A stretch of 64,000 nucleotides of DNA from Mangrovibacterium marinum. GTDB lineage: Bacteria > Bacteroidota > Bacteroidia > Bacteroidales > Prolixibacteraceae. The stretch lies in NCBI RefSeq assembly GCF_003046625.1, contig NZ_QAAD01000017.1:1-64000 (forward strand), given 5' to 3'. The position numbers were made by a program, and so were the translations under genes. This document shows, in pieces, positions 21,953-53,740 of this stretch. Each line of letters opens with the position of its first letter. Positions within the stretch are counted from its first letter, which is position 1. The notes under the pieces are model-generated. The model had not been told where the DNA came from and did no database searches. It worked only from the letters and a program-made list of their open reading frames with translations.

Positions 21953-21954
21953 CG

Positions 21955-31117: not shown

Positions 31118-31205
31118 AATCTTTCTTCTTTTAAAGGTGATATTTTGTAGTTGACATTTTTTTGAATGAAAATTGAAGATGAGCATCAGCCACCCTCAAT
31201 TTATT

Positions 31206-33578: not shown

Positions 33579-34430
33579 TTATTCTTTGTACAAATTCCCC
33601 GCACTGTGACACGACGGGCTGATTTCGAACTTCGAGAAATAGCGACTGACAATTTCATACAGATCCGGATCGTACTTTTCCAGATCCTCGCGTGTGTTCA
33701 CCCAGTTATGCTTGCCGTCGGGTGCCGGTACTTCGGCATTCACGTTGAACCAATCCTGCACACCTTCAGCCCAGTACTCGTAAAGGTTCGTCTTCGCGTA
33801 GGTTCTCACATACTTTCCTTCGGCTACCGCTTTGTCCAGTTTTTCCTGCAGCAGAGTGTTGAAAGTTGAATCCAGCGGTGCAATGCCAATCAGGTGAATG
33901 GCGTGGGCAAATTCGTGAATCGTAATATCCTCAGCGTGGTATTTGTCGATCTGGTAGCAAAGCAGGTTTTCCTCGGCACAAGTCGTTAGCGGCAAGTCCA
34001 TATCACCTCCCAAACCACGGGCGCGCAAGTCCCAGTTCAGCGTTGTGTCATTGGCCAAATCAGCATGTTCGGGGATATCGGTTGTTCCTTCGTAACGCGC
34101 CATAATTCCCAGTCGGGCTTTCTGGCTGACCATTTGTGCCAGCACGTTCTCCGGCAAATCTTTGGTCATGAAATCGATAATCCGGCAGGCCTGTACAAAG
34201 GCAGAGTCAGGCACCCGCCACGAACTCATGATTGCAATACCGTTTACATCTGCATATTTCCGGTAAAACGGGTCCAGCCCCAGCGAATCCGGTGGCGTTG
34301 TAATCTGATAGATTGGCGATCTGTCGTCACATTTTTGTTTGTCAGCTGCCCGAAGCGAACGGACGGGCCCAACAGCCATCAAAACTCCGCAGAGAATGAC
34401 GATTACTTTTATCTGTTTTTTCAAATTCAT
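33579..34430 (-). CDS. Secreted zinc metallopeptidase, family not assigned
   Basis: This 283-aa protein has an N-terminal signal peptide (ending near RSLRAA). It has a zincin motif HEFAH in DITIHEFAHAIHLIG and, about 50 residues on, YWAEGVQDWFNV whose Glu could be the third zinc ligand (gluzincin type). Four cysteines outside the active site may form disulfides. I do not recognise the exact family; it is distantly like ATLF/M34-type peptidases. Packed between a GH146-like enzyme and a dipeptidyl peptidase, it probably cuts the protein part of the target glycoprotein. Confidence 0.8.
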   Translation of the reverse strand: MNLKKQIKVIVILCGVLMAVGPVRSLRAADKQKCDDRSPIYQITTPPDSLGLDPFYRKYADVNGIAIMSSWRVPDSAFVQACRIIDFMTKDLPENVLAQMVSQKARLGIMARYEGTTDIPEHADLANDTTLNWDLRARGLGGDMDLPLTTCAEENLLCYQIDKYHAEDITIHEFAHAIHLIGIAPLDSTFNTLLQEKLDKAVAEGKYVRTYAKTNLYEYWAEGVQDWFNVNAEVPAPDGKHNWVNTREDLEKYDPDLYEIVSRYFSKFEISPSCHSAGNLYKE

Positions 34431-38040: not shown

Positions 38041-40449
38041 CTAATTTAATTTCCATTCCAAAATACCGGCCGACTCCCCCTCCTGCAACTTCGCCTGCAA
38101 GCGGACTGCTGATGTTTTTACCGGTTTAAAGTTGACGGTATTGTACTGATCCAAAGCAACACCATAAGCATCGGTTGTTTCAACCGGCACCCAATTACCT
38201 TTGCTGTCCTTTACTTCTAATTTCCAGCTTTGGGGAACGCGATAGTTGCCATCGTAATGAGTCATGTCCAGCCAGTAAACATCGGATCGGGACAGCGTGA
38301 CTGGCTTTTCAAACTCATATTGCACCCACTCTTCCGAGCCTTCTTTCAGCCACCAGTAGAAATAAGATTTGTCGACATCTCCCGAGCTTTTCGGATCGAA
38401 ACCATCATTCAGGCCGGGAGCCCAGCCACTTGAAGCGCTTGCATTTGCGTTGGTTGAAACCGAAGCTTCCGGCTTCACCACAACGGCATCTTCTTCATCA
38501 GCCAGCCAAACCAACATGTTGGATGTTCCCCGGTTGTCCCAGGCATAATACGGGATGGCAGTCAGGCTTACCGGTTCCAGTTCTTTCTCACCTTCATTCA
38601 ACTGTACGCGTTCGCCTTTTAGTTGAAGTTTCACAACACCGCCAAGCAAGTCGGGCTCAAACTGCGCTTCAACCGCCTCATCCGTTTTGGCAAAACAGTC
38701 GAACAGGAAGCCATTGCCGTTGTCTTTATCTTCGAAACAGTAAACAACCGGCCCCCGTTGGTAAGCCAATTTGCCTTTATCATTTGGCACGTTTTCGTTG
38801 GCAACGATTTTGCGCACCGGCATTGGGAAGTTCAGCGTAATTTCATCGCCGCTCTTCCATTTTTTTGCCAGGCTGACGTATCCGTTTTCAACCGTTGCAT
38901 TTTCCTTTTCGCCGTTAATTTCCAGCGTAAATGAATCGGCCAGCTGGTTAGCAAAATGATACAAATCGGACGGCACCGGCTGGTTTTGCGCCCATCCGGG
39001 GATCCGGATTTTCAGCTTCATCTTTTCGGAGGCTGCCTGATCGATTTTAATCACCACATCGCCGTTCCACGGGTATTTTGTTGTCTGGCTGATGGCAACA
39101 GTGTCTCTTCCAAACGGAACTTTCGCATTGCTTTCGGCAAACAGGTTGACGTACACCGCCTGCGAGTCGGTGGCATACATGTAGCCCGGAATGGAAGCCA
39201 TAAAACGGGTAATATTACCGGGGCAGCAGGCACAGCCAAACCAGGGTGCGCGGTCGTGATTATGGAGCGATTCCAGGGGGTTGTCGTAGAAAAACTTATC
39301 GCCGCTCAACGACACACCCGAAATAACGCCGTTGTACAAGACCCGCTCCAGCACATCGTAATACTTCGCATCGTGTTCGTTCAAAAAGAGGCGATAGTTC
39401 CAGTACACGTTTGAAATTGAAGCGCAGGTTTCGCAATAGGAAGTCATGTTCGGCAGTTCGTAGTTGGGTCCAAAGCCTTCGCCCTGGGCACGCGAACCGA
39501 TACCGCCGGTGATATAAAGTTTTTTGGACACCACATTTTCCCACACGCGTTTGGTAGCGTCCATAAGTTGCGCATCGTGTTGCAACGAGGCCACATCGGT
39601 AACACCCGAGTACAGGTAGCCCAGGCGAACGGCATGTCCCACAGCCTCGTCCTGATCAACAATCGGCTTGTGATCCTGGCTGTATTCACTCAGTTGGTGC
39701 CCGTCGGTTCCTTTACCGGTTTCATCGATAAAGTACCGGGCCAGCTTCAGATATTTTTCATCGTTGGTTACCCGGTAGAGCTTAACCAAGGCCATTTCGA
39801 TAATCGGGTGACCGGAAGGAACGTGCTTTTGATTTTCGCCCGGCCCAAACACCTGGTCCACCAGATCGGCATTTTTCAGGGCAATATCCAGCAAAGTTCG
39901 TTTTCCGGTGGCCAGGTAGTGCGCAACGGCAGCCTCGTAAAGGTGGCCGCTGTTGTACAGCTCGTGACTGTTCAGTCGTTCCCAGCGACTGCTGCCCCAC
40001 CAGCCTTTCAGGCGCTCTGCTTTGTTGGTCACGCAGGTGGTCAGGTAACCGTCGTCTTCCTGCGCGGCGTCAATCAGGTTGATCACGCTGTCGAGGTAAT
40101 GGTCCAGCTGCGGGTCGTACTGAACGGCTAAGGCGTACGAAGCGCCTTCGAGCACTTTGTACACATCGGTATCGTCGAAGGGAAAGTCGCCCTGCTGTTC
40201 ACCTTCGATCAGGCCACCGGCCAGTGCAAAGTTGTCCAGGCGGCCATTTTCCTCACACTTTTGAAAGGCGGAAGGAATGGACACCGTGCGGTTTATTTCA
40301 ATTTTGGGAGCCCAGAACCCGTCGGTAAAATGTACCGCCGTAAAAGGCACCGGCGTCAAAGGTTCGCTCGGTTTGGGCTGCTGCTTTGTGCAGGCAAAAG
40401 CCATCGCTCCGGCACAAAGCAAATATCCTATCGTTTTAATTTTCATCAT
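38041..40449 (-). CDS. Beta-L-arabinofuranosidase GH127 (HypBA1-like), copy A
   Basis: This 802-aa lipoprotein (lipobox AFAC) is of the HypBA1 type. E340 and C342 (SYCETCAS) and C408-C409 (GCACCPGN) match the Glu-x-Cys plus Cys-Cys zinc/nucleophile site known from Bifidobacterium longum HypBA1. The tail of about 140 residues contains a discoidin-like domain (WVQYEFEKPVTL; GILEWKLN), possibly for binding. HypBA1 removes arabinofuranose from hydroxyproline-linked beta-L-arabinobiose. It is a tandem paralog of the gene at 40482-42881. Confidence 0.92.
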   Translation of the reverse strand: MMKIKTIGYLLCAGAMAFACTKQQPKPSEPLTPVPFTAVHFTDGFWAPKIEINRTVSIPSAFQKCEENGRLDNFALAGGLIEGEQQGDFPFDDTDVYKVLEGASYALAVQYDPQLDHYLDSVINLIDAAQEDDGYLTTCVTNKAERLKGWWGSSRWERLNSHELYNSGHLYEAAVAHYLATGKRTLLDIALKNADLVDQVFGPGENQKHVPSGHPIIEMALVKLYRVTNDEKYLKLARYFIDETGKGTDGHQLSEYSQDHKPIVDQDEAVGHAVRLGYLYSGVTDVASLQHDAQLMDATKRVWENVVSKKLYITGGIGSRAQGEGFGPNYELPNMTSYCETCASISNVYWNYRLFLNEHDAKYYDVLERVLYNGVISGVSLSGDKFFYDNPLESLHNHDRAPWFGCACCPGNITRFMASIPGYMYATDSQAVYVNLFAESNAKVPFGRDTVAISQTTKYPWNGDVVIKIDQAASEKMKLKIRIPGWAQNQPVPSDLYHFANQLADSFTLEINGEKENATVENGYVSLAKKWKSGDEITLNFPMPVRKIVANENVPNDKGKLAYQRGPVVYCFEDKDNGNGFLFDCFAKTDEAVEAQFEPDLLGGVVKLQLKGERVQLNEGEKELEPVSLTAIPYYAWDNRGTSNMLVWLADEEDAVVVKPEASVSTNANASASSGWAPGLNDGFDPKSSGDVDKSYFYWWLKEGSEEWVQYEFEKPVTLSRSDVYWLDMTHYDGNYRVPQSWKLEVKDSKGNWVPVETTDAYGVALDQYNTVNFKPVKTSAVRLQAKLQEGESAGILEWKLN

Positions 40450-40481: not shown

Positions 40482-42881
40482 TCAGTTAAGCTCCCACTCA
40501 AAAATTCCGGTCGCATTTTTTTCCGGCAACTTAATCTCGATTTTGATAGCTGTTGTTTTCACCGGCTCAAAGGATACTTCGTTTGCCACTCCTTTGGTCA
40601 CCGTGTAATCGCTTGTGTTTTCAACCGGAGTCCAGTTACCGTCGCCGTTTTTGTAGTACAGCTTGTACCATTCGGGAATGCGGCAGCCGCCCCAGGGACC
40701 GTCGTCGTACCAGTAAACCGTTGAGCTGCTCACCGTTTTCTGAGAATCAAATTCGTAGCTAATCCACTCCGTTGTGCCTTCTTTGGGCCACCAGTGGTAG
40801 TAGGGCACCATTCGGTCATTTTCGTCCTTCGGCACCAGGCGGTCGTTGATGGCGCTGATAGCTTTCACCTTGTGCGAGGCATCAATTTTACTTTCCGAAG
40901 CAATAGTTGGTTGTTGTACCGGGCGGCTGGCGCTGATATCGTTGGGCAGCCAAACGGCCATTTCGCCGCTTCCGCGATGCGCCCAGGCGTAGTAAGGAAT
41001 CATATTCAGATCGACATCCTTCACTTCAATTTTTCCGGCTTTGTTGTAAAAGAGCAGCTGCGCATCCAGGCTGATCATGTTCAGACCATACAACATTTCC
41101 GGTTTACTTTCAACCTTAAATTGCGGTTTTTGCGGAATAATGGCATTCAACACACTGAAATCGTTGTCGGGCCATTCGGCACAGTAAACCACCGGCCCAC
41201 GTTCGATCGACACTTTTCCGCGATCTGCTTCAACCTTCGGATTGGCTTTCACCAGGCGTGGTTCCATATCGAAATGAACAGACACCTGGTCTCCTTTTTT
41301 CCACGTACGGGAAATGGTGAAATAGCCATTTTTCAGCTCACTTTCAATAGGTTCACCATTCACCTTGATGGCATACGACAGTTTCTTCTTATCGATGAAA
41401 GAATACAAATCGCTTGGAACAACATCGCCCAAAAGCCATCCGGGAATACGAATTTTCAGGTTGAAATCTTGCTTCTTCTTTGGAGCCACATCGATGGTGA
41501 TATCGCCATTCCAGGGGTATTTTGTTTTTTGGGTCAAGGCAACGGCCGTTTTCCCCACTTTTATTTCCGAGCTGTTCGACATGAACAGGTTCACATACAA
41601 ATCGTGGTCATGCACGGCATAAACATAGCCAGGCACCGATGGAATGAAACGCGCAATGTTCGACGGGCAACAGGCACAGCCAAACCAGGGTTGGCGCTGG
41701 TGCTGACCAATCGATTCCAAGGGGTTCGGATAGAAGAAACCGTCGCCATCCAAGGACACACCGCTGATCAGGCCGTTGTACAGCGTACGTTCCAGTACAT
41801 CGTAGTATTTCGACTCGCCGTGCAATAGGAATAAGCGGTAGTTCATGTACACATTGCCGATTGCGGCACAAGTCTCGCAATAAGCCGACATATTGGGCAG
41901 CTCGTAGTTCTTGCCAAAAGCTTCGCCATGGCCGGTTGCCCCGATACCACCGGTGATGTACAGTTTTTTACCAACAATGTTATCCCAGATCCGGTCGATG
42001 GCATGAATGTATGAGGTGTCGCCGGTTAAGGCAGCCACATCGGCCATACCGGTGTACATATAGGCCGCGCGCACGGCGTGCCCAACCGCTTCGTCCTGTT
42101 CCAACACGGGTTTGTGCGATTGGCTGTACTCCGACTGAATGGTGGTGTGGCCTCGTTCGTCAAGCAAATATTTGGCAAAGTCGAGGTATTTTTTGTCGCC
42201 CGTTACAACATAGAGTTTTGCCATGGCCATTTCGGCAATCTGGTGCCCCGGAACCACGGTTGCCTGCCCGGGATTTGGCCCAACTTCGCGCACGGCGCAG
42301 TCGGCGTATTTTTTGGCGATATCCAGGAAATTTGTTTTCCCGGTAGCCTGGTAGTGGGCAATTGCCCCCTCGATCATGTGCCCCAGGTCGTAGAGTTCAT
42401 GACTGAGGTCTTCTTCTTTTTCCCAACGGTGTTCGCCGGCCCACTCGTGCGGGTGCGCGGGGTTCATGGTGCGCGAGGTGTACAAATAGCCGTCCGGCTC
42501 CTGCGCTGCGGCCACAATGGTCAAAACACTGTCAATGTATTTATCCAGTTTGGCATCGGGATAAGTTTGCATCGAGTAGCTTGCTCCTTCGATGGTTTTG
42601 TACACATCGGTATCGTCGAACGAAAGCCCGCCGACCTGGATAGTATCGCTGGGGTGAGCCGCCTTAACAAAGTTGGTATACCGTCCAGTCTCTTCACATT
42701 TGCTGAAAGCTAAAGGAATGGTCACTTCACGGCTGGCTTTTAAACGTTGTCCCCAAAAGGCATCGTTCACTTTAACCGATGTGAATGGCACCGGCGAAAT
42801 CGGATATCCGGCATTCGGATGCTTCTGTGCTTTTGCTGTCAAACAAGCAAAACCGAGTAACAGGCATAAAATTTTTTTCAT
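40482..42881 (-). CDS. Beta-L-arabinofuranosidase GH127 (HypBA1-like), copy B
   Basis: This 799-aa secreted enzyme has a signal peptide ending near LTAKAQ, counted from ATG 42881; the longer frame from a TTG adds 12 codons and spoils the signal. The active site is complete: E336 and C338 (AYCETCAA), C404-C405 (GCACCPSN). The same C-terminal discoidin-like region as copy A is present (WISYEFDSQKTV; GIFEWELN). The first gene of the tandem run that continues down to GH146. It carries no lipobox, so unlike copy A it may be periplasmic. Confidence 0.92.
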   Translation of the reverse strand: MKKILCLLLGFACLTAKAQKHPNAGYPISPVPFTSVKVNDAFWGQRLKASREVTIPLAFSKCEETGRYTNFVKAAHPSDTIQVGGLSFDDTDVYKTIEGASYSMQTYPDAKLDKYIDSVLTIVAAAQEPDGYLYTSRTMNPAHPHEWAGEHRWEKEEDLSHELYDLGHMIEGAIAHYQATGKTNFLDIAKKYADCAVREVGPNPGQATVVPGHQIAEMAMAKLYVVTGDKKYLDFAKYLLDERGHTTIQSEYSQSHKPVLEQDEAVGHAVRAAYMYTGMADVAALTGDTSYIHAIDRIWDNIVGKKLYITGGIGATGHGEAFGKNYELPNMSAYCETCAAIGNVYMNYRLFLLHGESKYYDVLERTLYNGLISGVSLDGDGFFYPNPLESIGQHQRQPWFGCACCPSNIARFIPSVPGYVYAVHDHDLYVNLFMSNSSEIKVGKTAVALTQKTKYPWNGDITIDVAPKKKQDFNLKIRIPGWLLGDVVPSDLYSFIDKKKLSYAIKVNGEPIESELKNGYFTISRTWKKGDQVSVHFDMEPRLVKANPKVEADRGKVSIERGPVVYCAEWPDNDFSVLNAIIPQKPQFKVESKPEMLYGLNMISLDAQLLFYNKAGKIEVKDVDLNMIPYYAWAHRGSGEMAVWLPNDISASRPVQQPTIASESKIDASHKVKAISAINDRLVPKDENDRMVPYYHWWPKEGTTEWISYEFDSQKTVSSSTVYWYDDGPWGGCRIPEWYKLYYKNGDGNWTPVENTSDYTVTKGVANEVSFEPVKTTAIKIEIKLPEKNATGIFEWELN

Positions 42882-43516
42882 AAGTAAATTGTCAATTATA
42901 TTACAAAATTGGCTCAACGCAGATGACGATGTATCATGCGGACGTTGTGATCGTAAATGTCGTAGGTTCTGATCAAAATCACCGAAATATTTGTTCAGAA
43001 GAATCGTACAAATGTCTATTAGCGATCAGCTAAACCAAACTAAGCCAAATAAAACGGGACAAACTGTCAAAAATTCGACAAAACCTGACATTTATAAACT
43101 AACGGCATAAGACTTTCTAAAAAAACGGACATGATTGCCGGGAAATCACCCACAGGAATGAACGTTTAGTATTTCTCGACGATGCTGTTGTCGTTGTTCT
43201 CAAAAGTTGTCAGCTTGTCGTTCCACCTCTAATCAAAACCAGTTATTGGCATTGCACCTTCGCGCCTCTATCTGCTTCGACTTTCAATGAGCGGTCCGGA
43301 TTGCCAGTTCGAACCAGCGGGGGATTTCTTTTCTTCTGTGAAAGTCTTCTTCTGCTTTTACCTTCTATCTAATGTACCCACCCTGGCCCTCCCTCACGAG
43401 GGGGAAATTCCGACTTTGTCGGAATGGGAGGGTCAATCTAATTCAAAAGAATCCACATTCATCCTTGTTGGTAATTTCCAAGGGAATCATGTATGTTTGT
43501 TCTGAACCCAAGCAGA
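42882..43516. other. Gene-free 635-bp gap before the GH127 run
   Basis: No credible gene is present. It should hold the promoter of the GH127-GH27-peptidase run, though I find no exact TAnnTTTG on the minus strand, and it holds the palindrome at 43385-43434. It separates the SusCD transcript from the enzyme transcript. Confidence 0.6.
43385..43434. repeat. Nested palindrome in intergenic region
   Basis: The inner hairpin ATTCCGAC/GTCGGAAT (43407-43414, 43418-43425) is perfect. The outer arms CCCTCCC (43387-43393) and GGGAGGG (43426-43432) enclose it, with a small CCCTC-GAGGG hairpin between. It may be a terminator for CotH, a repeated extragenic element or a structured RNA. Confidence 0.6.
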
Positions 43517-44812
43517 TTAATTACCGTCTGGATAATTTGAAATCACTCCGTCGAGGTAGCTGATTCGAAGCGAAAGCCAATCCCCCATTCGTTGTATTTC
43601 ATGGGCATGATCCTTATCAATTGGCCACTTTTGAAAATCACGACTCATGGCGTCTGAAAATCCACCAGCATAATCCAACGTGACGGCCCAATAGGTTGAC
43701 AGGATTTGATCCCTGATTTCCAGCCATCGGGCTTTATATTCACTCACAAACTGACGATTTTTAAACAGATCGGTAAAGAACTCCGGAACGTAATAACCTC
43801 CGGCATGTATCGATGGCGAGGTTCCCAGGACCAGCTCTTTATAATTGGAGAAGAAATTGTGCCCTGTGTACATGGTCGACCAGTCAAAGTCGTACCCGGC
43901 ATCAAAATCCCACAAAGGCCCCATCACCCATTTTTGTCCCTTATCTTTATGCAGGTACATACTCCGGGGAGCTGCCAGCTCAACGTTGTAGACAAGTTCC
44001 TGGATCAGCAAAAAATCGATGAACGAAGGGATATCTAAAAGTGCGTCAACCTGATTATAATCAGCACTCTTGACAGCTTCTTCCAACAACGCAAATTCTG
44101 CTTTTATTGCGAACAAATGAGCTTCATCAATAATATCCGGATCTTTTACGCGAACCGGCATTCCGTATTCTTCAGACCAAAAATTGTCTTCTTCCTCCGG
44201 AGCAAGTCCGGGACCGTCATCAACGTCAAGCGAGAGCAGCAAGCCTTCATCTTCATCAATAGCTACGCGGTTTTTACCCTGTTCAACCTGTTCGGTCAGG
44301 GTATACAACCCCATGTAATCGCCGTTTAAGGTCAGTTCCACATAACGCGAATGATTGGTATACGGCAGTCCCAAACCTTGTCCCACTGTAAATACAAAAG
44401 TATTCATCAGGTGAGTCGGATCACGGTAGTCAGCCAACAGAACCCAGTCTTTATCGGCTGCCAGCCCGAGGATTTCAGCACTTTGATCCAGCTTTATCCG
44501 GTAAGGCTTTTTCGGATACCAAAGCCAAGTTGAGTTTCCTCGTCCCCGGATGCGACCGGAACCAGAGTAATCCCAATCTGAATTACGGGCATCAAGAGAG
44601 ATCGAGCAGTTTACATAGCTTTCTTTGGAATCGACTTCAGTCGCATTTTCGGTCGTAATTTCAATCTTGGCTACCGAGTATACTCCATCGAAAACCTCAT
44701 CTTCATCCGGGTTGACTTCCTCATCGGAACAACTTGCAAGAATGAATATGAGCAGATAAATAAATGCCGGAAGAAATTTCTTTCCTACCGGCATCTTTTT
44801 ATTGAAAATCAT
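43517..44812 (-). CDS. CotH-family kinase lipoprotein
   Basis: This 431-aa lipoprotein (lipobox LASC) has a CotH kinase domain over most of its length: IRGRGNSTWLWYPKKPYRIK, the WVLLADYRDPTHLMN segment, YMGLYTLTEQVE and the metal-binding MGPLWDFDAGYD. CotH proteins are atypical kinases that phosphorylate proteins such as spore-coat proteins. They also occur in Bacteroidota surface loci with unknown targets. I took ATG 44812; a GTG lies three codons upstream. It is the last gene of the SusCD operon, 14 nt after the DUF6055 gene. Confidence 0.9.
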   Translation of the reverse strand: MIFNKKMPVGKKFLPAFIYLLIFILASCSDEEVNPDEDEVFDGVYSVAKIEITTENATEVDSKESYVNCSISLDARNSDWDYSGSGRIRGRGNSTWLWYPKKPYRIKLDQSAEILGLAADKDWVLLADYRDPTHLMNTFVFTVGQGLGLPYTNHSRYVELTLNGDYMGLYTLTEQVEQGKNRVAIDEDEGLLLSLDVDDGPGLAPEEEDNFWSEEYGMPVRVKDPDIIDEAHLFAIKAEFALLEEAVKSADYNQVDALLDIPSFIDFLLIQELVYNVELAAPRSMYLHKDKGQKWVMGPLWDFDAGYDFDWSTMYTGHNFFSNYKELVLGTSPSIHAGGYYVPEFFTDLFKNRQFVSEYKARWLEIRDQILSTYWAVTLDYAGGFSDAMSRDFQKWPIDKDHAHEIQRMGDWLSLRISYLDGVISNYPDGN

Positions 44813-44826
44813 CGCTAACACGCTGA

Positions 44827-46908
44827 CTAATTAATGGTGACATTGAAAACAAAGGTGACCGTGTATTGCGTTCCATCTTTAGTGTAAACGAAAGCTTCTT
44901 TCACGGTATAAGTATCTCCCGCCTGGCTTCCATCCGGGAATTGCCCGACATTAAACTCGAACGTACCTGCCGTAAATTCGGAGAATATTTTGGAGTCAAA
45001 CTCGGTTCCCCACGCGGTCACGTCGCCCTGGCTGTTGTACCAAAAACCATAGCCGTTAGCCGTAGTTTCGTAGTTCAGCGAACCGTCGGGCTCCACTGCG
45101 GCAAAAGCGATTTTTCCTTCCTGCGGACTAGCTTTTGCTGCCAGCAAGTTAGCGGCAATAGCCGATGGTTGCATGGCCAAAGCCTGTCCTACCCGGGCAA
45201 TATCGCCGTTGGTATTCAGGTTCACCAGTTTTCCGGTATAATCACCGGCCGTGGTTGCCGGAAAGGCTAAATCGTAAGTCAGTGTCAGATCCTGCGGCAC
45301 CGCATTCTCGTCGATGGTAATGTTGCCCAACAAATCTGTATTGCTAAACTTCACGGTATAAGGCCACTGATCGTCGTTGCTCTCTTTTTCGTCCCAAGCA
45401 TGCGACTTGTAAGTTGAAGGAGCCCCAAGCACCACGAACCACAGGCGCTCACATCCTTCAGGCACGGTAAATTCAACATCGGCAGAGCTGCCTCGATTCA
45501 TTTCGCCGTAAACCCGTTCGCCACTTTCCAACAGGGCAACATAGCCATACCGCCAACCGGCACGCGTAGTTTCGCTGGCATTGTAGCTTGTTTTGGTCTT
45601 CACATCTTCGCCGTCGGTATACTGCCCCGGGTCGTCCGCGGCCAATGGCGATCCCGGCAAAAGGCCGGTGAACTGGGTCGTTACCACCGTTCCGGCTTCC
45701 GGCACGTTCAGTGGAATTACGTTGTAGCCTGTTGTTCCGGGACATTTGGCATAGGCCACCTGGTAAGTGCCGTCTTCCAACTGGTAGAACTTGTAGGTGT
45801 ACTTACCGATATAGTCTTGTCCGTAAGCGCGAATGGCATCCAAATCCCAGGTAACCAGCTTACTGACAGCATCGAACAATTCATTGTTCATTTCGTCAAC
45901 CGACAAGCTGTTCATGCGCATATAGGCCTGAATCGGATCTTCCGGGCTTTCGGCTTCGCGCCAGATTTTGCCGATGTAGTCGATACCATGTTTTTCGGTC
46001 CAGTAGTACTGCAGGAAATAGCTGGCATAGCGTTGCCACTCGTGGCAAAAATGCCGGTGGTAGTTGTCCATATAAACCGGGAAGTTGTAGCTGGGAAAAA
46101 TCTGCTCGGGATAGCTTTGGAAAGATTGCCACTGCGCACATTGCTCCCAAAACGCATTTCCACCGTTACCTCCATAGCCATAGCGAAAGCCGCGGGTAAA
46201 ATCATCCGCGATTCCACTGTAAGCCAACAAATCGGAATAGGTTTGATACTGAAAGCTGTGGCCAATTTCGTGAGCGATAGTCGATCCGACCGGCTTACAA
46301 GTACTTGGGTTTACCCAGAGGGCGCCAACCACATTGTCGTAACCACCTCCTGTTGCCAACCATTCGGTTTGGTAAAGCAGATAGATCTCCATTTTGTATT
46401 GATCCAGGTTTGATTTTCCGGCTCCAAGCTCTGCAAAACCCAAGGTATTGACATTCACTTCGAAAAAGCTTTCGGCTTTAAGCAACAGGTCGTCAATATC
46501 AACCCGCAAAGCAGACGGAATGGTATCCGCATTGGGATTCAGGCCAAACCCCTCTTCCCAGAAGACGATAAAGTGATCGGACTGTTTGCTGCGAACGAAA
46601 GACCATTTGGAATCGCTGCGTAGCAGATCCATGTTGGCCAATTCTGCCGGCTTGTAAAACTTCTCAAAATCGGGAATGTCCGACTCCTCCAGGATTGTCA
46701 CCTCAGGTTCTGTGGTATCCTCTTCATCGTCATCCGGATCGGGTTGGTCGGGTGTCGGCTTGGCCCAGTGCACCGGGTCGTCATCGTCGCTGCAAGCAAC
46801 AAAAGCCGGCGACGAAACACCTAAAAACAAGAAGAGCAGCAGCAATTTGTATAAGCCAGCAACCGCTGGCTTATACATGTTCAGAAAATTTATTCGAGTG
46901 TATCTCAT
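44827..46908 (-). CDS. DUF6055-DUF4859 lipoprotein with HEIGH motif
   Basis: This 693-aa surface lipoprotein has a signal with lipobox FVAC and an acidic DDDD tail typical of surface export in Bacteroidota. The N-terminal half is of the DUF6055 type with a zincin-like STIAHEIGHSFQYQ (HExxH), which suggests a metallopeptidase. The last 140 residues repeat the DUF4859 pattern (GFWYNSQGDVTAWG; NVGQFPDGSQAGDTY) also found three times in the neighbour at 46916. The HExxH indicates a peptidase, but neither activity nor family function is proven. It is coupled to the neighbours by gaps of 7-14 nt. Confidence 0.82.
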   Translation of the reverse strand: MRYTRINFLNMYKPAVAGLYKLLLLFLFLGVSSPAFVACSDDDDPVHWAKPTPDQPDPDDDEEDTTEPEVTILEESDIPDFEKFYKPAELANMDLLRSDSKWSFVRSKQSDHFIVFWEEGFGLNPNADTIPSALRVDIDDLLLKAESFFEVNVNTLGFAELGAGKSNLDQYKMEIYLLYQTEWLATGGGYDNVVGALWVNPSTCKPVGSTIAHEIGHSFQYQTYSDLLAYSGIADDFTRGFRYGYGGNGGNAFWEQCAQWQSFQSYPEQIFPSYNFPVYMDNYHRHFCHEWQRYASYFLQYYWTEKHGIDYIGKIWREAESPEDPIQAYMRMNSLSVDEMNNELFDAVSKLVTWDLDAIRAYGQDYIGKYTYKFYQLEDGTYQVAYAKCPGTTGYNVIPLNVPEAGTVVTTQFTGLLPGSPLAADDPGQYTDGEDVKTKTSYNASETTRAGWRYGYVALLESGERVYGEMNRGSSADVEFTVPEGCERLWFVVLGAPSTYKSHAWDEKESNDDQWPYTVKFSNTDLLGNITIDENAVPQDLTLTYDLAFPATTAGDYTGKLVNLNTNGDIARVGQALAMQPSAIAANLLAAKASPQEGKIAFAAVEPDGSLNYETTANGYGFWYNSQGDVTAWGTEFDSKIFSEFTAGTFEFNVGQFPDGSQAGDTYTVKEAFVYTKDGTQYTVTFVFNVTIN

Positions 46909-46915
46909 AACTAAA

Positions 46916-48373
46916 CTATTCGATATTATAAGTAATATTGAAGGTCACCGATGCACCGTTCAAGGTCGCAATATAGGTTGTGGTTACCGAGTTGCCGGCG
47001 ACTGCATTTTCCGGGTGGTTTCCGGCAAAAATATACAACTCTGTTTCGTTGTATCCAAGGCCGGAATACACCAAACCTTCGCCCCAGCCGCCTGCGATAC
47101 CATCAACGGTTAACCAATAAGCGGGGTGTGGTGTTGCTGTATACTCGGGATCTTCTTCGGTCACTTCTCCCTGGTACAATTTCAGTTCACCTCTCATGAT
47201 TGCCCGGCCAATCTCGTAAGTCGTCAATTTGAAGGCATTACGCAAGGTCTCGGCAACATCAGCGTTTACGCTCGCATAATCGTCGCTGTACGTTTTGGTA
47301 ATAGTAAGCTCTGCCGAAAGATCTTCCGGATCGCCTGCCGGCGCTGTTTCCGGATTATCGTAAGGCACCACTGTTACCGCCAATTGCAGCATCACAACCT
47401 TATTACCGGCCAGCAAACCATATTTGAGGGTGTAAGTTTCATCCTCGGCAATGGCGTCGGGAATTTGGCCCAGGCTGATTTCATTATCAGAGAACTCGCC
47501 GTAATAGGTATAAAATTTGGCCCCGTCTTCGCTAAGCAGCGGATTGCCGTTTTCGTCGTAGTAAAAGCCGATGCCTTCAATGGCAGCTTCCTGTGCATAC
47601 GAACCGTCTTCATTGATGGACACAAAACTCACTTCCTCCATGGAGCTAACGCCCAAGTCAGTCAAGGCTTGTGTCAAATCGAATTCAATCGAATCAGCGT
47701 CGTAATTAAGTCGTGGAAAAACATCGATACTCAAATTCTGTGTACTTACAATATCTGCCGACAGAGCTCCGGGAGCCTTGGCCGTTACGTTAATCACCAC
47801 GGCAACGCGGATATCATTGTATTTCAAGGCCTCGATAATGGTGATTTTTTGACCATCTTCTAAATGGCCCGGAAATTGGCCAACATAAAAGCCGCCGTCT
47901 TCCGACCAAAACTCGGCAAACACCATGGCCGATTCACCCCAGTCAATAACCTTGCTGTCGGCGCCCCACCAGTGACCCCAGGTAGAACCTGTATTTGTTG
48001 CACCGGAGTAGTCTGAGTGTGTTGCTCCCTGCATGGCAAAACCCTTAATATCGGGGGCTCCGCTTTCGCCGTCGATACCTGCCAGGAGGTCTTCTTCCGA
48101 CAGGCCGAACTGGTCCGCGATTTGGGTGATATCAATCGGCACCTCAACCCCATCGTATAGGGTAGCGCTGGTTGTAATTTCAGCGTCGTAGCGAAGCACC
48201 AGGTCGGCGTTGATCCGGTTCTTTGCAGCTTCTTCAATAGAGTCCTGGCGTGCCATCTCTGCGATTTCGTCTGCCGTAAGATTGTGCAGTGTGCTAAAAT
48301 TCTCGTTATCGGCACAACTGATAAAGCCAGCTGTGAATAAGCAAAGAATTAGGTATAAATAGATCTTTTTCAT
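46916..48373 (-). CDS. DUF4859 lipoprotein, probable surface glycan-binding protein
   Basis: This 485-aa lipoprotein (lipobox FISC) lies directly after SusD, the SusE/SusF-like place where surface glycan-binding proteins are found. It has about three DUF4859 units (roughly residues 90-200, 205-330, 345-485) with similar turns such as GFYVGQFPG and EISLGQIPD and conserved aromatics (GHWWGADS). The start at 48373 (MKKIYLY) is preferred over the TTG three codons upstream. It most likely binds the target glycoconjugate. No enzyme motif is seen. Confidence 0.82.
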   Translation of the reverse strand: MKKIYLYLILCLFTAGFISCADNENFSTLHNLTADEIAEMARQDSIEEAAKNRINADLVLRYDAEITTSATLYDGVEVPIDITQIADQFGLSEEDLLAGIDGESGAPDIKGFAMQGATHSDYSGATNTGSTWGHWWGADSKVIDWGESAMVFAEFWSEDGGFYVGQFPGHLEDGQKITIIEALKYNDIRVAVVINVTAKAPGALSADIVSTQNLSIDVFPRLNYDADSIEFDLTQALTDLGVSSMEEVSFVSINEDGSYAQEAAIEGIGFYYDENGNPLLSEDGAKFYTYYGEFSDNEISLGQIPDAIAEDETYTLKYGLLAGNKVVMLQLAVTVVPYDNPETAPAGDPEDLSAELTITKTYSDDYASVNADVAETLRNAFKLTTYEIGRAIMRGELKLYQGEVTEEDPEYTATPHPAYWLTVDGIAGGWGEGLVYSGLGYNETELYIFAGNHPENAVAGNSVTTTYIATLNGASVTFNITYNIE

Positions 48374-48400
48374 ACTTGTCAAATTTTATTAAGCTGATTT

Positions 48401-50110
48401 TTAATCGTTGGCTGCAGCCGTTTGGTAACCCTCGTTTTGTTTCAATGAGATGTTGGCATCCAGTGCTGACTTCGGAATTGGGAAATAGTCCCAGTGTGTC
48501 TCCGTTGTGGCATCTTTACAGAACCATGATTTTCCGTTGAACACGTTGCGGCCATCAGCCATTTTGAAACGCACCAGGTCCTGACGACGGTGGTGTTCTC
48601 CGACAAATTCCCAGCCCAGGTCGTCCAGCAAACCACCCAACTCAATATCGTCGCCACCTTCATTGGTAACCAGATGCGAAGCCGGATCGAAGTTATTATA
48701 GCCTTCGCTGGTGTACTCGCTGTGTCCGTAAGCATACACGCTTCCTCCGGTAAGGTCGGCAACGGTACGTTGTGCTTTAGCCGCAGAATCGAACGAACGC
48801 GAGCGAACCTCAGTGATCAAATCAGCGGCAGTTTGCTGATCGCGATCCAGGCGCAACAAACACTCGGCTTTCATGAACAACACATCGGCATAGCGGAAGA
48901 AAGCAACATCGTTGCCATAAGTTCCGTAATCGCCGGCCACAATTTCACTTTTTACAAAACGGTAACCTTCCTGTTGATAAGCACCGGGATTATCGATTGA
49001 GTGCACTGCTAACGAGTAGTTCAACACGCCCTCGCCGGCCCAGTCGTCGGTGGTAAACGGAATCGGATCGCCCGACTGAGGGATGTACTCGCCACTTGCA
49101 TCTTTCACAGCCATGCGCTGAACGCCGCCGGCCCAGGTATCGCTTAGGCGGTTGTCGCCATCCTGATAGCTTTCGATAAACTGAGGGATTGCACAGCTAC
49201 CGTTCCAGGGAGAGCCATTGTAGCCATAAGCAGCTGCTCCGGCACCCACCAGGCATTTATTCACCAGGTAGTTGTGCGATGCATTTTTCCCATCGAGCGG
49301 CAAGGCAAAGATGATCTCCGGCGAGCCGGAAATATCCGCTTTAAAGTTGTCCAGGTAATTGGGGGCTAATCCGTAGCCTCCGTCGGTAATAATTTCATTT
49401 ACCTCGGCCAAAGCCAGTTCGTAGTAGTTGTTGTCGTCGGTTTTGAACCAGGCGTTATGGTTCAGGTAAAGCTTGGCCAACAACATACAAGCAGCAAAGC
49501 GGTTTGGATAACCATGGATTTTTTCGGTACCCAGATCATCTTTAATCGCATTCAACTCGGTTACGCAGAAGTTAAAAATAGTATCTCCGGCAACTTGTTC
49601 CGGCAGATAGCCCGCTTCCACCTGCTGTGTTTTTTCCAGGGGCACATTGCGGAAAGCATCCAGAAGCACGTAATAATTCAAGGCGCGCATAAACCGCATT
49701 TCCGCCTGGGCTTGTCCTGTTTCGGGCAATACATCCAGGGTTTTGTTGGCATAGCCAATTCCAACGTAGGCGTAATACCACAATCCTTCAATATGTCCCT
49801 GGGTTTCATTCCAAGTATGTTTGTGCATATTCACATACAAATCGCCCCAGCCAATACCAATGCGCTTAGGTGTCATGTAGGTATCGGCACATTCTTCGTT
49901 CAGGTCAAAATAGCCATTCCAGCCCCAATACAGGAAACGAAACTGGGCATAAACTTCTCCCATCATATAACCCACGATTTCGGGGTCGTTTACGTCGATG
50001 GTTTCATCGGTCAGCGAATCATAAACGGTCTCGTCCAGGTTGGTACAAGCGCCCAATCCCAGCAACAGACCCAGTGCAAGACTGATATATAGTTGTTTCA
50101 TGAATTTCAT
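48401..50110 (-). CDS. SusD/RagB-family substrate-binding lipoprotein
   Basis: This 569-aa protein is a SusD homologue with lipobox GLGACTN at residue 22 and the usual alpha-helical TPR-like frame. The C-terminus LVRFKMADGRNVF...HWDYFPIPKSALDANISLKQNEGY is family-typical. It sits on the cell surface and hands glycan or glycopeptide to the SusC channel. It follows the SusC gene by 15 nt. Confidence 0.95.
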   Translation of the reverse strand: MKFMKQLYISLALGLLLGLGACTNLDETVYDSLTDETIDVNDPEIVGYMMGEVYAQFRFLYWGWNGYFDLNEECADTYMTPKRIGIGWGDLYVNMHKHTWNETQGHIEGLWYYAYVGIGYANKTLDVLPETGQAQAEMRFMRALNYYVLLDAFRNVPLEKTQQVEAGYLPEQVAGDTIFNFCVTELNAIKDDLGTEKIHGYPNRFAACMLLAKLYLNHNAWFKTDDNNYYELALAEVNEIITDGGYGLAPNYLDNFKADISGSPEIIFALPLDGKNASHNYLVNKCLVGAGAAAYGYNGSPWNGSCAIPQFIESYQDGDNRLSDTWAGGVQRMAVKDASGEYIPQSGDPIPFTTDDWAGEGVLNYSLAVHSIDNPGAYQQEGYRFVKSEIVAGDYGTYGNDVAFFRYADVLFMKAECLLRLDRDQQTAADLITEVRSRSFDSAAKAQRTVADLTGGSVYAYGHSEYTSEGYNNFDPASHLVTNEGGDDIELGGLLDDLGWEFVGEHHRRQDLVRFKMADGRNVFNGKSWFCKDATTETHWDYFPIPKSALDANISLKQNEGYQTAAAND

Positions 50111-50125
50111 AAATCGTCGAGTTTT

Positions 50126-53100
50126 TTAAAAGTTAACAGAAAGTCCGAAAGTGTATGAACGTACCGTTGGATACTTATCGCGATCATCAATACCCGGTGC
50201 CAGGAAGTAGTTTGACACTTCAGGATCGAGACCGGAATAATTGGTAATGGTGAACAGGTTTTGGCCCGATACGTAGAGGCGCAGGTTTTGGAGGTATTTC
50301 CGGGTTTTATCCGAAAGCGGGAACGTGTATCCCAAAGTGGCATTGGTCAACTTCACGAAGTCGCCGTCCTCGATGTGATCACTCCAAACGCCTTGCGACA
50401 TCGAACTGGACAGCGCCACCATCAGGCGGTCGCCGTTAGCGTCCAGAACGGGAGCACCGGTGACATCGGTTGCGGGGTGCAAATCGGCAGCTGTTTTCAG
50501 TCGGTTGTAAGCAATCGAGTTGTTCTCGTAGAAACTGCGTTGAACATTCAGGATCTCGAAGCCAAATTGAGCGGTAAACTGCAGGCTCAAATCGAAACCT
50601 TTGTAGCGGAAGGTGTTGTTCCATCCGGCGTACACCTGCGGCAGCCCGTTACCCAAACGCTGACGGTTGGACTCGACATTGAGGCTGGTGTCAAATTCTT
50701 TCACGGTCCATTCGCCGGCATCGTCTTTTACTTCAACCAACACAAAACCGTCTTTACTGACGCCGACTGAGCGCAGCCCCCAGAAATCGCCCAGGCGGTG
50801 GCCTATTTCCATGGCGTGGGTTGGAACCGAAATCGGGTCACCTACGCCACCAACTTCTGCAAAATTGTCGGTTTCATACAAGTCGTTCGACAGCGACAGC
50901 AGTTTGTTGGCATTGTGCGACAAGGTCAAGGTGGTATTCCACTCGAAATCACCTTTTTTTACCGGAATGGCATTCACCATCACCTCAATCCCCCTGTTGC
51001 GCATCTGGCCAACGTTTGCTCTTGTTGTTCCGTACATATTGGGAGGTACCGGCACGGCGTAGTCGTACAAAAGGTCAACTGTTTTCTTGGTATAGACATC
51101 CACCGAGCCACTCAGGCGCGAATCCAGCACTGCCCAGTCCAAACCAATATTCCATTCCCGGGTTGTTTCCCATTTCAAATCCGGGTTCGGGTTTTGAGCC
51201 ACCATCAACGAAGGTGTCCATTCACCGTCCTTGCTTAAATGTTTGCCCCAGGTATCGTAATCGTACATATTGAGAGAGGTGTACGACTCGTTTGGAACAA
51301 CACCGGTAACACCGAAGCCTGAACGAAGTTTCAGGTTATTCAACCAACCGGCATCTTGCATAAACGATTCGTTGCTGATGGTCCAACCCAAGGATGCCGA
51401 AGGGAATGTTCCCCATTTGTGGTTATCGCCAAACTTGGAAGAACCTTCGCGGCGAACACTGAACATGGCATTGAACCGATTTTCGAAGCCATAGGTTACC
51501 CGACCGAAGAAACCAATCAGCTTGTTGTCGTTTTTGTAGGATCCCATACTGGCAGTGTGATCTTCATCTGTCAAGTACAGACCTTGCCCCAGGTTGTTGT
51601 ACAGGTACGATTCCGAAGGAAACTCGCCGTTGCCGGCATTAAATCCATCGTATATATTGTACAGGTAACTGTAGCCCGCCAGTGCTGTTACGCGGCTTTT
51701 GCCAATCTCGAAACTATAGGTTGAAGTTAACTCCAGGTTGTCATTACGACCGCTACCGGAGCTTTTTGAAGCATAGCCACGTGTTTTAGGAACCGTTTTG
51801 GTCTGCGACTCATCGCTACCTTTACTATTTCCGAAATACTTGCTGGTGGTATATGTTTCACCAGTGCTTTCAGTCTCTTTGCGCGACAACATCAAATTGG
51901 TTTTCCATCTTTTGATGGGCTCAAAGGTAATATTACCGGTTATGCGCGCCATTTTTGACCGGGTATCGCCAATTAACTCATTCTGGATTTCAACAGGATT
52001 GTAATACTGAAACTTACTGAACTCCTCGTAGTAAGAACCATCATCTTCGTTGTACACCGGCGAAGACGGGTTACGGATCAGCGCCTGACGATAAGCATAC
52101 GAGTTGTTGTTATTCGTGTTTTTATGTGTGGTATAAAGAACATTCACATTGAACTTCAACACATCGTTCAAGGCATATTGGCTGAAGTCGAGTTGTGCGC
52201 GAATGTCGTTACTGTCACTTTTGCGCATAATTCCTTCCTCATCGCTGTAAGTTACGTTTGCCGAATAAGCAGACTTTTCAGAGCCGCCTTCCAGTGTTAA
52301 CGAATGGTTTTGGGTATAACCGGCTTTACGCGAAATGGCCTCCAGCCAATCCGTGTCATAACCTTCGTACTCATAGTTTGTACGACCGTAAATAATGTCG
52401 TGTGTATCCATGAAGTCGGCTTTCTTAAACCATTGCGACAGGGATGCATAACTGTTGTAGCTTGCTTTTGTAGGCGAATTGCGCTTTCCGGATTTGGTTG
52501 TAATAATAATGACACCATTGGCACCTCGGGTACCGTAAATTGCAGCAGCCGAAGCATCTTTCAACACGTCGATTGATTCAATATTTTCGGGAGCAACGGT
52601 TGTCAACGAGCCTTCTACGCCATCAACCAGCACCAGTGGGGAAACACTTCCCATGATGGTTGTAATACCACGAAGCATAATACTTGAGGTCGCGTTCGGG
52701 TCGCCCGAAGGTTGGGTAATGCTTAAACCGGCAATTTTACCTTTTACCAGCTCGGCAGCGTCGCCGATTTTACCGACCGAGAAATCTTCTGATTTTACAC
52801 TGACAACGGCACTGGTAACATCAGCCTTACGCTGCGTACCGTAGCCAATGGCTACCACTTCATTCAAGCCGACAGTTTCTTCTACCAACTGAATTTGAAT
52901 TGAAGACTGCGTGCCCACCGGAAATTCCTGCGTTTGGTACCCGATAAAAGAGATAACCAGAACATCGGCAGGTTCTGCCTGAAGCGAAAAATTACCATCC
53001 CTGTCAGATATAGCCCCATGGGTTGTACCTTTAATTAAGATGGTGGCTCCCGGCACAGGCTCACCGCTGTCGGTCGTCACCTTACCGGTTACGATTTTTT

Positions 53101-53245
53101 CCTGCAATAATTCTGATTGATTTTCCACAGCACTTGCAGTGGTGCTAACTGTAGCAAACAGCATTAAGAGAAAGACAACCTTTAGGGTTGACAAGAGTTC
53201 TTTTGGTAACCTTAGGTGGCCACCAAGACAACAACGTTTTTTCAT
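50126..53245 (-). CDS. SusC/RagA-family TonB-dependent receptor
   Basis: This 1039-aa protein (counted from the ATG near 53245; an upstream in-frame extension of 37 codons lacks a signal sequence) has a signal peptide, a carboxypeptidase-regulatory-like domain (KIVTGKVTTDSGEPVPGATIL), a TonB plug (LVLVDGVEGSLTTVAPENIESIDVLKDASAAAIYG) and a 22-strand barrel ending in Phe (SYTFGLSVNF). It imports glycan or peptide fragments across the outer membrane with its SusD partner. First gene of the SusCD-DUF4859-DUF6055-CotH operon. Confidence 0.96.
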   Translation of the reverse strand: MKKRCCLGGHLRLPKELLSTLKVVFLLMLFATVSTTASAVENQSELLQEKIVTGKVTTDSGEPVPGATILIKGTTHGAISDRDGNFSLQAEPADVLVISFIGYQTQEFPVGTQSSIQIQLVEETVGLNEVVAIGYGTQRKADVTSAVVSVKSEDFSVGKIGDAAELVKGKIAGLSITQPSGDPNATSSIMLRGITTIMGSVSPLVLVDGVEGSLTTVAPENIESIDVLKDASAAAIYGTRGANGVIIITTKSGKRNSPTKASYNSYASLSQWFKKADFMDTHDIIYGRTNYEYEGYDTDWLEAISRKAGYTQNHSLTLEGGSEKSAYSANVTYSDEEGIMRKSDSNDIRAQLDFSQYALNDVLKFNVNVLYTTHKNTNNNNSYAYRQALIRNPSSPVYNEDDGSYYEEFSKFQYYNPVEIQNELIGDTRSKMARITGNITFEPIKRWKTNLMLSRKETESTGETYTTSKYFGNSKGSDESQTKTVPKTRGYASKSSGSGRNDNLELTSTYSFEIGKSRVTALAGYSYLYNIYDGFNAGNGEFPSESYLYNNLGQGLYLTDEDHTASMGSYKNDNKLIGFFGRVTYGFENRFNAMFSVRREGSSKFGDNHKWGTFPSASLGWTISNESFMQDAGWLNNLKLRSGFGVTGVVPNESYTSLNMYDYDTWGKHLSKDGEWTPSLMVAQNPNPDLKWETTREWNIGLDWAVLDSRLSGSVDVYTKKTVDLLYDYAVPVPPNMYGTTRANVGQMRNRGIEVMVNAIPVKKGDFEWNTTLTLSHNANKLLSLSNDLYETDNFAEVGGVGDPISVPTHAMEIGHRLGDFWGLRSVGVSKDGFVLVEVKDDAGEWTVKEFDTSLNVESNRQRLGNGLPQVYAGWNNTFRYKGFDLSLQFTAQFGFEILNVQRSFYENNSIAYNRLKTAADLHPATDVTGAPVLDANGDRLMVALSSSMSQGVWSDHIEDGDFVKLTNATLGYTFPLSDKTRKYLQNLRLYVSGQNLFTITNYSGLDPEVSNYFLAPGIDDRDKYPTVRSYTFGLSVNF

Positions 53246-53740
53246 ACACTCATTTTTTAGGTTTTTAATCCGAGAATTTTGTTTGGTTATAAATGAAACC
53301 GTGATAATTGTGTGACTCCCAAATTCGACAATAATCCCCTCGCCGACTTTCACCATTGTTTTTAAAAGTGATACAAATGTGTATCAATGGCTTAATTGAA
53401 ATTAAATCAGAAATACACACCCCCTGAACAAACTCAAAACAAGCAACTTAGCCTCCGAATCATGCTCTACATCATATTTCCACAAACAATGCTTCCCTAC
53501 ATTCAATTTGCCATGATTTGAAAACAAAAAACTACATTTTGCTCACACATCCCAAGCATGTACTGTGGTTAAAAACACATATATGACAATGAATGACGTG
53601 CCACTAAATTCATCCGGAAATAAGGGGAAAGGTTACACTCCTGGCGAAAGCAAATCTGACTCTAAATTCAAAAAAGGCTCGGATGAAAACAGTGAAAACT
53701 GTTCATCAAACTCGAAACGAGACATTTTCAACATCGTCCT
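53246..53740. other. Gene-free region between SusC and the hybrid regulator
   Basis: About 495 bp without a gene. It should contain the SusC promoter and the binding site of the hybrid regulator; the best -7 candidate on the minus strand is CACATTTG near 53374-53381, one base off. I find no clear terminator. Confidence 0.5.

Follow-up and report, generated by a model that had tools for sequence, protein, structure and literature searches.

Among the closest described relatives of the system considered here is Svx/AvrXca, a secreted protein of Pectobacterium, Dickeya and Xanthomonas. Svx was characterized as a zinc peptidase by Tendiuk and co-workers (PMC9266454; PMC10815107). It cuts carrot extensin and leaves concanavalin A and mucin undegraded, and without its arabinan-recognising accessory domain it loses extensin cleavage but keeps that of azocasein (PMC13164431, May 2026). 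Arabinosides of hydroxyproline (Hyp) are the target of the hypBA1-hypBA2-hypAA system of Bifidobacterium longum and Xanthomonas; in Xanthomonas a predicted prolyl oligopeptidase adjoins hypAA, and homologues of hypBA2 and hypAA are said to be absent from Bacteroides (PMC6085000). Use of extensins and other Hyp-rich glycoproteins (HRGPs) by Latescibacteria was predicted in silico with GH127 taken as the sign (PMC4454575). For Bacteroidota we found, among the matches listed in the open literature, no account of extensin use and no extensin locus with SusC and SusD (SusCD), subscription journals lying mostly outside the search. Here we analysed a stretch of 64,000 nucleotides from Mangrovibacterium marinum (contig NZ_QAAD01000017.1, positions 1 to 64,000; the whole stretch is called the window), in which a run of genes from SusC to a CotH kinase-like protein encodes a DUF4859 lipoprotein and a DUF6055-DUF4859 protein with an HExxH motif. 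We propose, with a probability of about 0.75, that it is a utilisation locus for Hyp-rich plant glycoproteins bearing beta-L-arabinofuranosides, that is, extensins and their relatives.

We favour this substrate because no substrate class other than Hyp-rich glycoproteins with beta-arabinose would call for arabinosidases and hydroxyproline use together; on our best reading, the parts fit a protein rich in hydroxyproline, with beta-arabinose on Hyp and galactose on serine, better than they fit other classes. Gene content, gene order, recurrence, the predicted peptidase fold and the conserved metal-site residues were computed, and we infer the substrate, the DUF4859 ligand, the compartments and the order of steps. 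As in Svx/AvrXca, there is a related peptidase with an HExxH zinc site, secreted and with an extra domain that we propose to be glycan-recognising. It differs in being a lipoprotein of a nutrient-uptake locus, in its longer metal-site spacing, in scoring below the Svx equivalog cut-off and in having DUF4859 in place of the left-handed beta-helix, acyltransferase-like accessory domain. The window shares with hypBA1-hypBA2-hypAA its GH127/GH146 and GH43 enzymes for Hyp-arabinosides, but here SusCD uptake, an endopeptidase, exopeptidases and hydroxyproline catabolism are added, so that the protein backbone would be used too; GH121, the family of the beta-L-arabinobiosidase HypBA2, was not found among the scanned window proteins, the genome not having been searched for it. 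Bacteroidota polysaccharide utilisation loci (PULs) with a hybrid two-component sensor/regulator (HTCS) and SusCD likewise gather regulator, SusC, SusD, surface binder and glycosidases in one neighbourhood, and the window is a PUL by its adjacent SusC and SusD genes, its glycosidases (GH127, GH43, GH27) and its HTCS; unlike them, it would be aimed at a glycoprotein, with peptidases and amino-acid catabolism as part of the set. The hydroxyproline epimerase pathway, from trans-4-hydroxyproline to alpha-ketoglutarate, is probably matched by an operon with an epimerase above its model cut-off, DAO, DHDPS and aldehyde dehydrogenase family proteins and an AraC regulator, here with a genomic tie to a surface peptidase and to arabinosidases. 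The Latescibacteria prediction, as far as the available text goes, concerned the glycosidase alone and tied in no peptidase locus or hydroxyproline catabolism (PMC4454575).

The core of the locus is a run of five genes:

50126..53356, minus strand: SusC/RagA TonB-dependent outer-membrane transporter (TIGR04056, 744.6 bits, cut-off 368; Pfam TonB-dependent receptor domains)
48401..50110, minus strand: SusD-family lipoprotein (PF07980, SusD_RagB, 81.3 bits)
46916..48382, minus strand: lipoprotein with three tandem DUF4859 beta-sandwich units, proposed surface glycan/glycopeptide binder (PF16151 in 3 stretches, 136.7 bits in all; model pLDDT 88; N-terminus ...FISC-ADNENFS)
44827..46908, minus strand: DUF6055-DUF4859 lipoprotein with C-terminal DUF4859, proposed Svx-like gluzincin endopeptidase for extensin-type glycoproteins (PF19527, 552 bits; PF16151, 99 bits; weak match to NF040510; lugdulysin Z 16.1)
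43517..44821, minus strand: CotH kinase-like lipoprotein (PF08757, 147 bits)

An earlier, sequence-only reading, whose range of 43517-50110 begins at SusD and leaves SusC outside, had described five collinear genes from SusC to CotH joined by gaps of 7-27 nt. All five are present on the minus strand, but the gaps measure 15, 18, 7 and 5 nt from the listed ends of the open reading frames (ORFs), and since an ORF was started at the first ATG, GTG or TTG after a stop, the true gaps may differ. Pfam agrees with the three or so DUF4859 copies then seen in one lipoprotein and the single copy at the end of the HExxH protein (3 + 1). DUF4859 is confined to this run in the whole genome (4.6 Mb, 61 contigs), where each of its 4 matches exceeds the Pfam cut-off, and relatives repeat the gene order, which argues that the run is not due to chance. 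A promoter and terminator scan of 42500-54000 found sites no commoner than in shuffled sequence (13 against 15.1 and 14 against 13.5) and was thus uninformative on transcripts. CotH, a family found in 18 of 54 relative loci (defined below), is a kinase-like surface protein without an obvious role in a nutrient locus.

The PF19527 (DUF6055) match of 552 bits is full-length, covering positions 7-415 of 417. DUF6055 is tied to MEROPS family M106 through one statement on a fungal protein (PMC11241649); in the open literature that we searched, a single paper mentions DUF6055 and none mentions DUF4859. An AlphaFold2 model of the DUF6055 protein (pLDDT 89, 43 sequences) had the zinc peptidase lugdulysin as its top VIA-align match (Z 16.1, 275 residues, 4.4 A); M1 aminopeptidases came next, at about Z 8-11. 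The lugdulysin comparison spans positions 86-458 of the model and hardly touches the C-terminal DUF4859 part. Foldseek against the PDB gave no convincing match, and the peptidase fold is therefore assigned from VIA-align. Residues H213, E214, H217 and E255 were invariant in 43 of 43 DUF6055 sequences. DUF6055 is thus predicted to be a gluzincin zinc peptidase, having the fold together with HExxH and a downstream glutamate, and the motif lies within a predicted peptidase fold and not outside any such fold. The C-terminal left-handed beta-helix (acyltransferase-like) domain of Svx was not found, no hexapeptide family being matched, and DUF4859 stands there instead. DUF6055 also occurs in other settings, as stand-alone proteins (430-460 aa) that accompany the fused form (L124:11983-13335, L104:12200-13573) or occur without it (L183:16293-17585), and inside proteins of about 1300 aa in genomes G022 and G107 (L093:3126-6986, L099:8332-12267).

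After a 599-nt gap the same strand continues with eight genes separated by 6-137 nt, and an HTCS, a GH43 and a second GH146-like gene lie upstream of SusC:

40482..42917, minus strand: GH127 beta-L-arabinofuranosidase-like, signal peptide (PF07944, 419 bits; best solved relative 6ex6, 1099 bits, which we take to be BT3674)
38041..40449, minus strand: GH127 beta-L-arabinofuranosidase-like, lipoprotein signal (PF07944, 390 bits)
36829..38034, minus strand: GH27, alpha-galactosidase-like (PF16499, 273 bits; best solved relative the alpha-galactosidase 6f4c, 376.5 bits)
34451..36691, minus strand: DPP-IV-like serine peptidase S9 (PF00930, 175 bits; PF00326, 153 bits; best solved relative 2d5l, dipeptidyl aminopeptidase IV)
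33579..34430, minus strand: predicted metallopeptidase of a 283-aa HExxH family (IHEFAH; H172, E173 and H176 invariant in 11 of 11 aligned sequences)
31206..33566, minus strand: GH127-domain protein, GH146-like beta-L-arabinofuranosidase (PF07944, 414 bits; best solved relative 5opj, 537 bits, presumably a GH146 enzyme)
29480..31186, minus strand: L-glutamate gamma-semialdehyde dehydrogenase of proline catabolism (TIGR01236, 779 bits, cut-off 614)
28008..29390, minus strand: Xaa-Pro peptidase, M24 (PF00557, 147 bits; NF010133, 163 bits, below its cut-off)
53741..57805, minus strand: HTCS (Reg_prop, Y_Y_Y, HisKA, HATPase_c, Response_reg, HTH_18)
58029..60182, minus strand: GH43 with F5/8 and LamG domains, proposed alpha-L-arabinofuranosidase (PF04616, 157 bits; solved relatives are mixed arabinofuranosidases and xylosidases)
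60296..62788, minus strand: second GH146-like protein, GH127 catalytic domain with DUF6805 (PF07944, 385 bits)

The next solved relatives of 31206-33566 after 5opj, 8k7x and 8k7y, were deposited as beta-L-arabinofuranosidases, and 60296-62788 may be grouped with GH146 by the DUF6805/DUF4986 architecture that the two proteins have in common. The 283-aa protein had no Pfam match up to E 1, and its PDB matches were at chance level only. In five gut loci (L120, L123, L124, L133, L145) a domain 39-41% identical to it, HExxH included, follows GH97 in proteins of 906-909 aa, the GH97 call being made by Pfam for L145 (L145:12053-14776) and by BLAST for the other four. GH97 includes alpha-galactosidases. 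The serine of extensins bears alpha-galactose (PMC5371791), and the GH27 of the window would do the same job on serine galactose as the GH97 of the gut relatives.

The sequence-only reading also had both glycan and protein handled at the cell surface. SusD, the DUF4859 lipoprotein, the DUF6055 protein and CotH do look like surface lipoproteins, and a crude lipobox pattern was found in 31/37 DUF4859 lipoproteins, 68/75 fused DUF6055 proteins and 18/24 CotH proteins, but the GH127 of 40482-42917, GH27, DPP-IV and the second HExxH protein carry ordinary signal peptides, as for the periplasm. No signal peptide was seen in the N-termini of the Xaa-Pro peptidase and the hydroxyproline enzymes. Judged from N-termini, the surface-only view is probably wrong in part, and it was too narrow in overlooking the glycosidases, the further peptidases and the hydroxyproline operon that point to the substrate. 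This operon and its divergent regulator are as follows:

27027..27905, plus strand: AraC-type regulator, divergent from the operon (PF12833)
25908..26822, minus strand: DHDPS-family protein, proposed pyrroline-4-hydroxy-2-carboxylate deaminase (PF00701, 189 bits)
24311..25900, minus strand: aldehyde dehydrogenase, proposed alpha-ketoglutarate semialdehyde (alpha-KGSA) dehydrogenase (PF00171, 155 bits)
23295..24299, minus strand: 4-hydroxyproline epimerase (NF010578, 579 bits, above the cut-off of 376)
22015..23256, minus strand: FAD D-amino-acid dehydrogenase-like, proposed D-hydroxyproline dehydrogenase (PF01266, 238 bits; NF001933, 253 bits, below cut-off)

For the D-hydroxyproline dehydrogenase, the deaminase and the alpha-KGSA dehydrogenase the superfamilies fit and no specific model scored above its cut-off; the top two NCBIfam models for 24311-25900 were those of 2,5-dioxovalerate and alpha-KGSA dehydrogenases, both far below cut-off. 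Among 140 genomes of the family (Prolixibacteraceae), the epimerase and DUF6055 each exceeded the cut-off in 21, with both in 13 where 3.2 were expected (Fisher 3.5e-8, relatedness uncorrected). In a sample of 395 genomes of the phylum the epimerase exceeded its cut-off in 77. There we counted as full-length-type DUF6055 a match above 200 bits, found in 12 genomes (our own included), and left out the 35 partial ones of the 47 that pass the Pfam cut-off; the epimerase was present in 7 of these 12 and in 70 of the 383 others (p 0.003, descent uncorrected). At three relative loci (L136, L147, L154) the fused DUF6055-DUF4859 gene stands beside an epimerase operon and its AraC regulator, a gene to which the regulator of the window is 35-36% identical over nearly its whole length. 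In genus g32 (family f7; the class of the window, another order), probably flavobacteria judging by the AraC likeness to Galbibacter and Salegentibacter, four genomes carry the epimerase and DUF6055 on one contig, 12-26 kb apart. One of these loci (L184) has on one strand aldehyde dehydrogenase, epimerase, DAO, amino-acid permease, DPP-IV, GH146-type, DUF885, DUF5695, GH43, M24 and DUF6055 genes, a second genome (G160) has a closely similar order next to SusC and SusD, and in a third locus (L183) the epimerase operon comes with GH97, M1, S9, M24 and DUF6055. DUF6055 is linked both to hydroxyproline use and to beta-arabinosidases; the window and g32 show the two links at once, the other loci one at a time. 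Two further observations concern this part of the window and its pathway. Just past the hydroxyproline operon lie two tandem tRNA-Arg(acg) genes (window 21633-21953), which may mark a point of insertion. The glycyl-radical hydroxyproline dehydratase HypD (NF043068) scored above cut-off in 3 of 13 gut genomes with the fused peptidase (L145, L142, L177) and was not used as evidence.

A contig scan gave 120 relatives of the fused protein, of which 80 were kept; they span Prolixibacteraceae, Bacteroides, Phocaeicola (including Phocaeicola vulgatus ATCC 8482, L145), Prevotella, Salegentibacter, Zunongwangia, Chitinophaga, Mucilaginibacter and others. Gene content was counted in 54 loci of at least 20 kb, the 26 shorter ones being dropped, and GH127/146 was scored as a catalytic domain with at least 50% coverage. 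Both SusC and SusD were present in 40 of the 54. GH127/146 catalytic domains were found at 40 of the 54 loci, and at 35 of the 40 that have SusCD. As a control in three genomes, GH127 was near other SusD entries, a few of them fragments of one gene, in 3/135 cases within 10 kb and 6/135 within 20 kb, as against 2/3 (10 kb) and 3/3 (15 kb) for the SusD of this locus. The other families were GH43 (23 loci), GH27 or GH97 (19), DPP-IV (12), the 283-aa family (12), M24 (4) and the epimerase (3). Ten of 11 family genomes have a DPP-IV close to the fused gene, though each genome has 3-8 matches; nine of these ten are 65-69% identical to that of the window, and the tenth (G105, of the genus of the window) 37%. 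In addition, DUF5695 appears repeatedly in such clusters, across two orders and in many cases without GH127 (L078:3296-5998, L065:14447-17197, L184:12236-14926), and could possibly be a new glycosidase for the same substrate. Family relatives also have downstream a Crp-type regulator and an M61 peptidase (L078:14283-16949), a sodium symporter (G069, L070:12777-14456) and an arabinose isomerase (G070, L080:17985-19496).

DUF4859 itself was found in 15 of the 140 family genomes and in only 3 of the 395 phylum genomes, too few for a co-occurrence test there. As the sequence-only reading had it, the domain is used in two slots, in the lipoprotein that follows SusD and on the peptidase. This pairing is seen again in relatives, with a separate DUF4859 protein at most 3 ORFs upstream in 51 of 76 loci with a long fused ORF. 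In its model (pLDDT 88) the lipoprotein consists of three beta-sandwich units in tandem, to which short helices are added. The four copies of the window have little in common beyond a framework. A known lectin fold was considered and is unsupported, as a PDB sequence search gave two plant agglutinins only (E 0.31 and 0.46) and a profile search nothing. We put at roughly even odds that DUF4859 is a glycan-recognition module of surface lipoprotein and peptidase which reads Hyp-arabinosides, the best available argument being that Svx needs its arabinan-recognising accessory domain, an analogy and not a homology. DUF4859 may instead bind no ligand and act as a structural spacer or in dimerisation, also in a locus that targets extensin; we take this as a serious possibility but on balance doubt it. 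Tandem beta-sandwich units without a specific structural match would suit such a role, as argued for another PUL domain, DUF1735 (PMC11216935). However, W135, G136, W138, Q169 and P171 of the lipoprotein are invariant across 27 sequences, the domain is placed both after SusD and on the peptidase, and the analogous Svx domain recognises arabinan (PMC13164431).

Other substrates would share part of the gene set. Arabinogalactan-proteins are likewise Hyp-rich with terminal beta-arabinose, and 6ex6, taken here for BT3674, is the closest solved GH127 to 40482-42917 (1099 bits). BT3674 is a GH127 of an arabinogalactan locus of B. thetaiotaomicron (PMC3243724, PMC10850190). Yet no galactanase-type family GH16, GH30 or GH35 was found among the scanned window proteins (not every ORF was scanned), several GH127/146 enzymes with GH27 or GH97 suit Hyp-arabinosides and serine galactose better, and docking to Svx disfavoured beta-linked Hyp-galactose (PMC9266454); we regard arabinogalactan-proteins as an unlikely target in place of extensins.

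That the locus serves pectin, as arabinan or rhamnogalacturonan-II, with the peptidases merely clearing away wall protein, seems to us distinctly improbable, since the breakdown of pectin has no evident need of hydroxyproline catabolism or of four predicted peptidase genes, and the g32 clusters join GH146-type genes with hydroxyproline catabolism. Two of the four peptidase families act next to proline. In favour of pectin, an aceric acid hydrolase model matches both GH127 proteins (481-483 bits, below the cut-off of 950), a rhamnosidase-like ORF lies at 62921-63985, and arabinan and rhamnogalacturonan-II are also substrates of GH127 and GH146 members (PMC10850190). The absence of GH127/146 from 14 of the 54 fusion loci, including the three with an adjoining hydroxyproline operon (L136, L147, L154), would agree with hydroxyproline drawn from animal collagen or gelatin, the arabinosidases then being part of a neighbouring locus. 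Hydroxyproline is abundant in collagen, but collagen is not known to carry arabinose, and GH127/146 was found in 35/40 SusCD-type loci (about 20 kb) as against 3/135 other SusD entries (10 kb), so that this origin appears very improbable.

Several observations weigh against the proposed use of extensin-type glycoproteins. The co-occurrence tests ignore common descent. Only 3 of 54 loci have the hydroxyproline operon next to the fused gene, and none of the three has GH127/146. When 42 of the 80 loci (41 genomes) were checked, the epimerase was present in 19 genomes with the fused gene and lacking in 22. It was found in 13 of 13 genomes classed as Flavobacteriia, Chitinophagia, Sphingobacteriia or Cytophagia, classes that we assigned from genus names and a set that includes two records of Chitinophaga filiformis and several congeners, and in 6 of the 28 others. 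In g32, 6 of 10 sampled epimerase genomes have no full-length-type DUF6055, and its DUF6055 proteins are without DUF4859, so that the g32 clusters speak for DUF6055 and not for DUF4859. In 6 of 11 family genomes GH127/146 is missing from the roughly 20 kb around the fused gene, its place being taken by a protein of some 900 aa, which proved to be DUF5695 where scanned. The Svx/AvrXca model NF040510 matched the DUF6055 protein in two stretches (E 1.6e-20) with 73.3 bits against a cut-off of 625, which makes it a distant relative of Svx and not a member. The 37 residues between H217 and E255 fall outside HExxHx(8-28)E (PMC9266454) and compare with 22 between HExxH and the glutamate in Svx; by alignment, the distance would shrink to 29 in two relatives that have 8 residues deleted. 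The VIA-align search with the whole three-unit DUF4859 model gave a best Z of 6.8 and nothing above Z 7, which gives no basis for a fold claim. Finally, 599 nt separate CotH from the GH127 gene of 40482-42917, and the run therefore need not be a single transcript.

For extensin-type glycoproteins we propose the following course. The HTCS would sense released oligosaccharide, and the DUF4859 lipoprotein and SusD would hold the glycoprotein at the surface, where the DUF6055-DUF4859 zinc endopeptidase may cut the glycosylated chain, its DUF4859 unit recognising the arabinosides. Glycopeptides would be imported through SusC. In the periplasm, GH43, GH127 and GH146-type enzymes would remove the Hyp-linked arabinose, GH27 (GH97 in the gut relatives) would take galactose off serine, and DPP-IV and the second HExxH protein would trim the peptide. 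The Xaa-Pro peptidase could then free (hydroxy)proline in the cytoplasm, for conversion to alpha-ketoglutarate by the epimerase operon.

In its widest form, which we hold tentatively and at slightly less than even odds, the proposal is of a class of glycoprotein utilisation loci that is widespread in Bacteroidota and has had no name so far. In these loci DUF4859, a new binding module, would address an Svx-like surface peptidase to Hyp-arabinosides. The partners of this peptidase would be SusCD, arabinosidases, proline peptidases, serine-galactosidases (either GH27 or a fusion of GH97 with a new HExxH peptidase) and, in certain lineages, the enzymes of hydroxyproline catabolism. Bacteria with such loci, human gut species such as Phocaeicola vulgatus among them, would feed on the sugar and the backbone of plant extensins alike. 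As wall proteins, extensins are tough and cross-linked. If the proposal is true, a SusCD system of the polysaccharide type has been turned to a glycoprotein, a function open to testing can be given to one unnamed peptidase family and to two domains of unknown function, and a dietary source of protein becomes apparent for gut species, Phocaeicola vulgatus for one.

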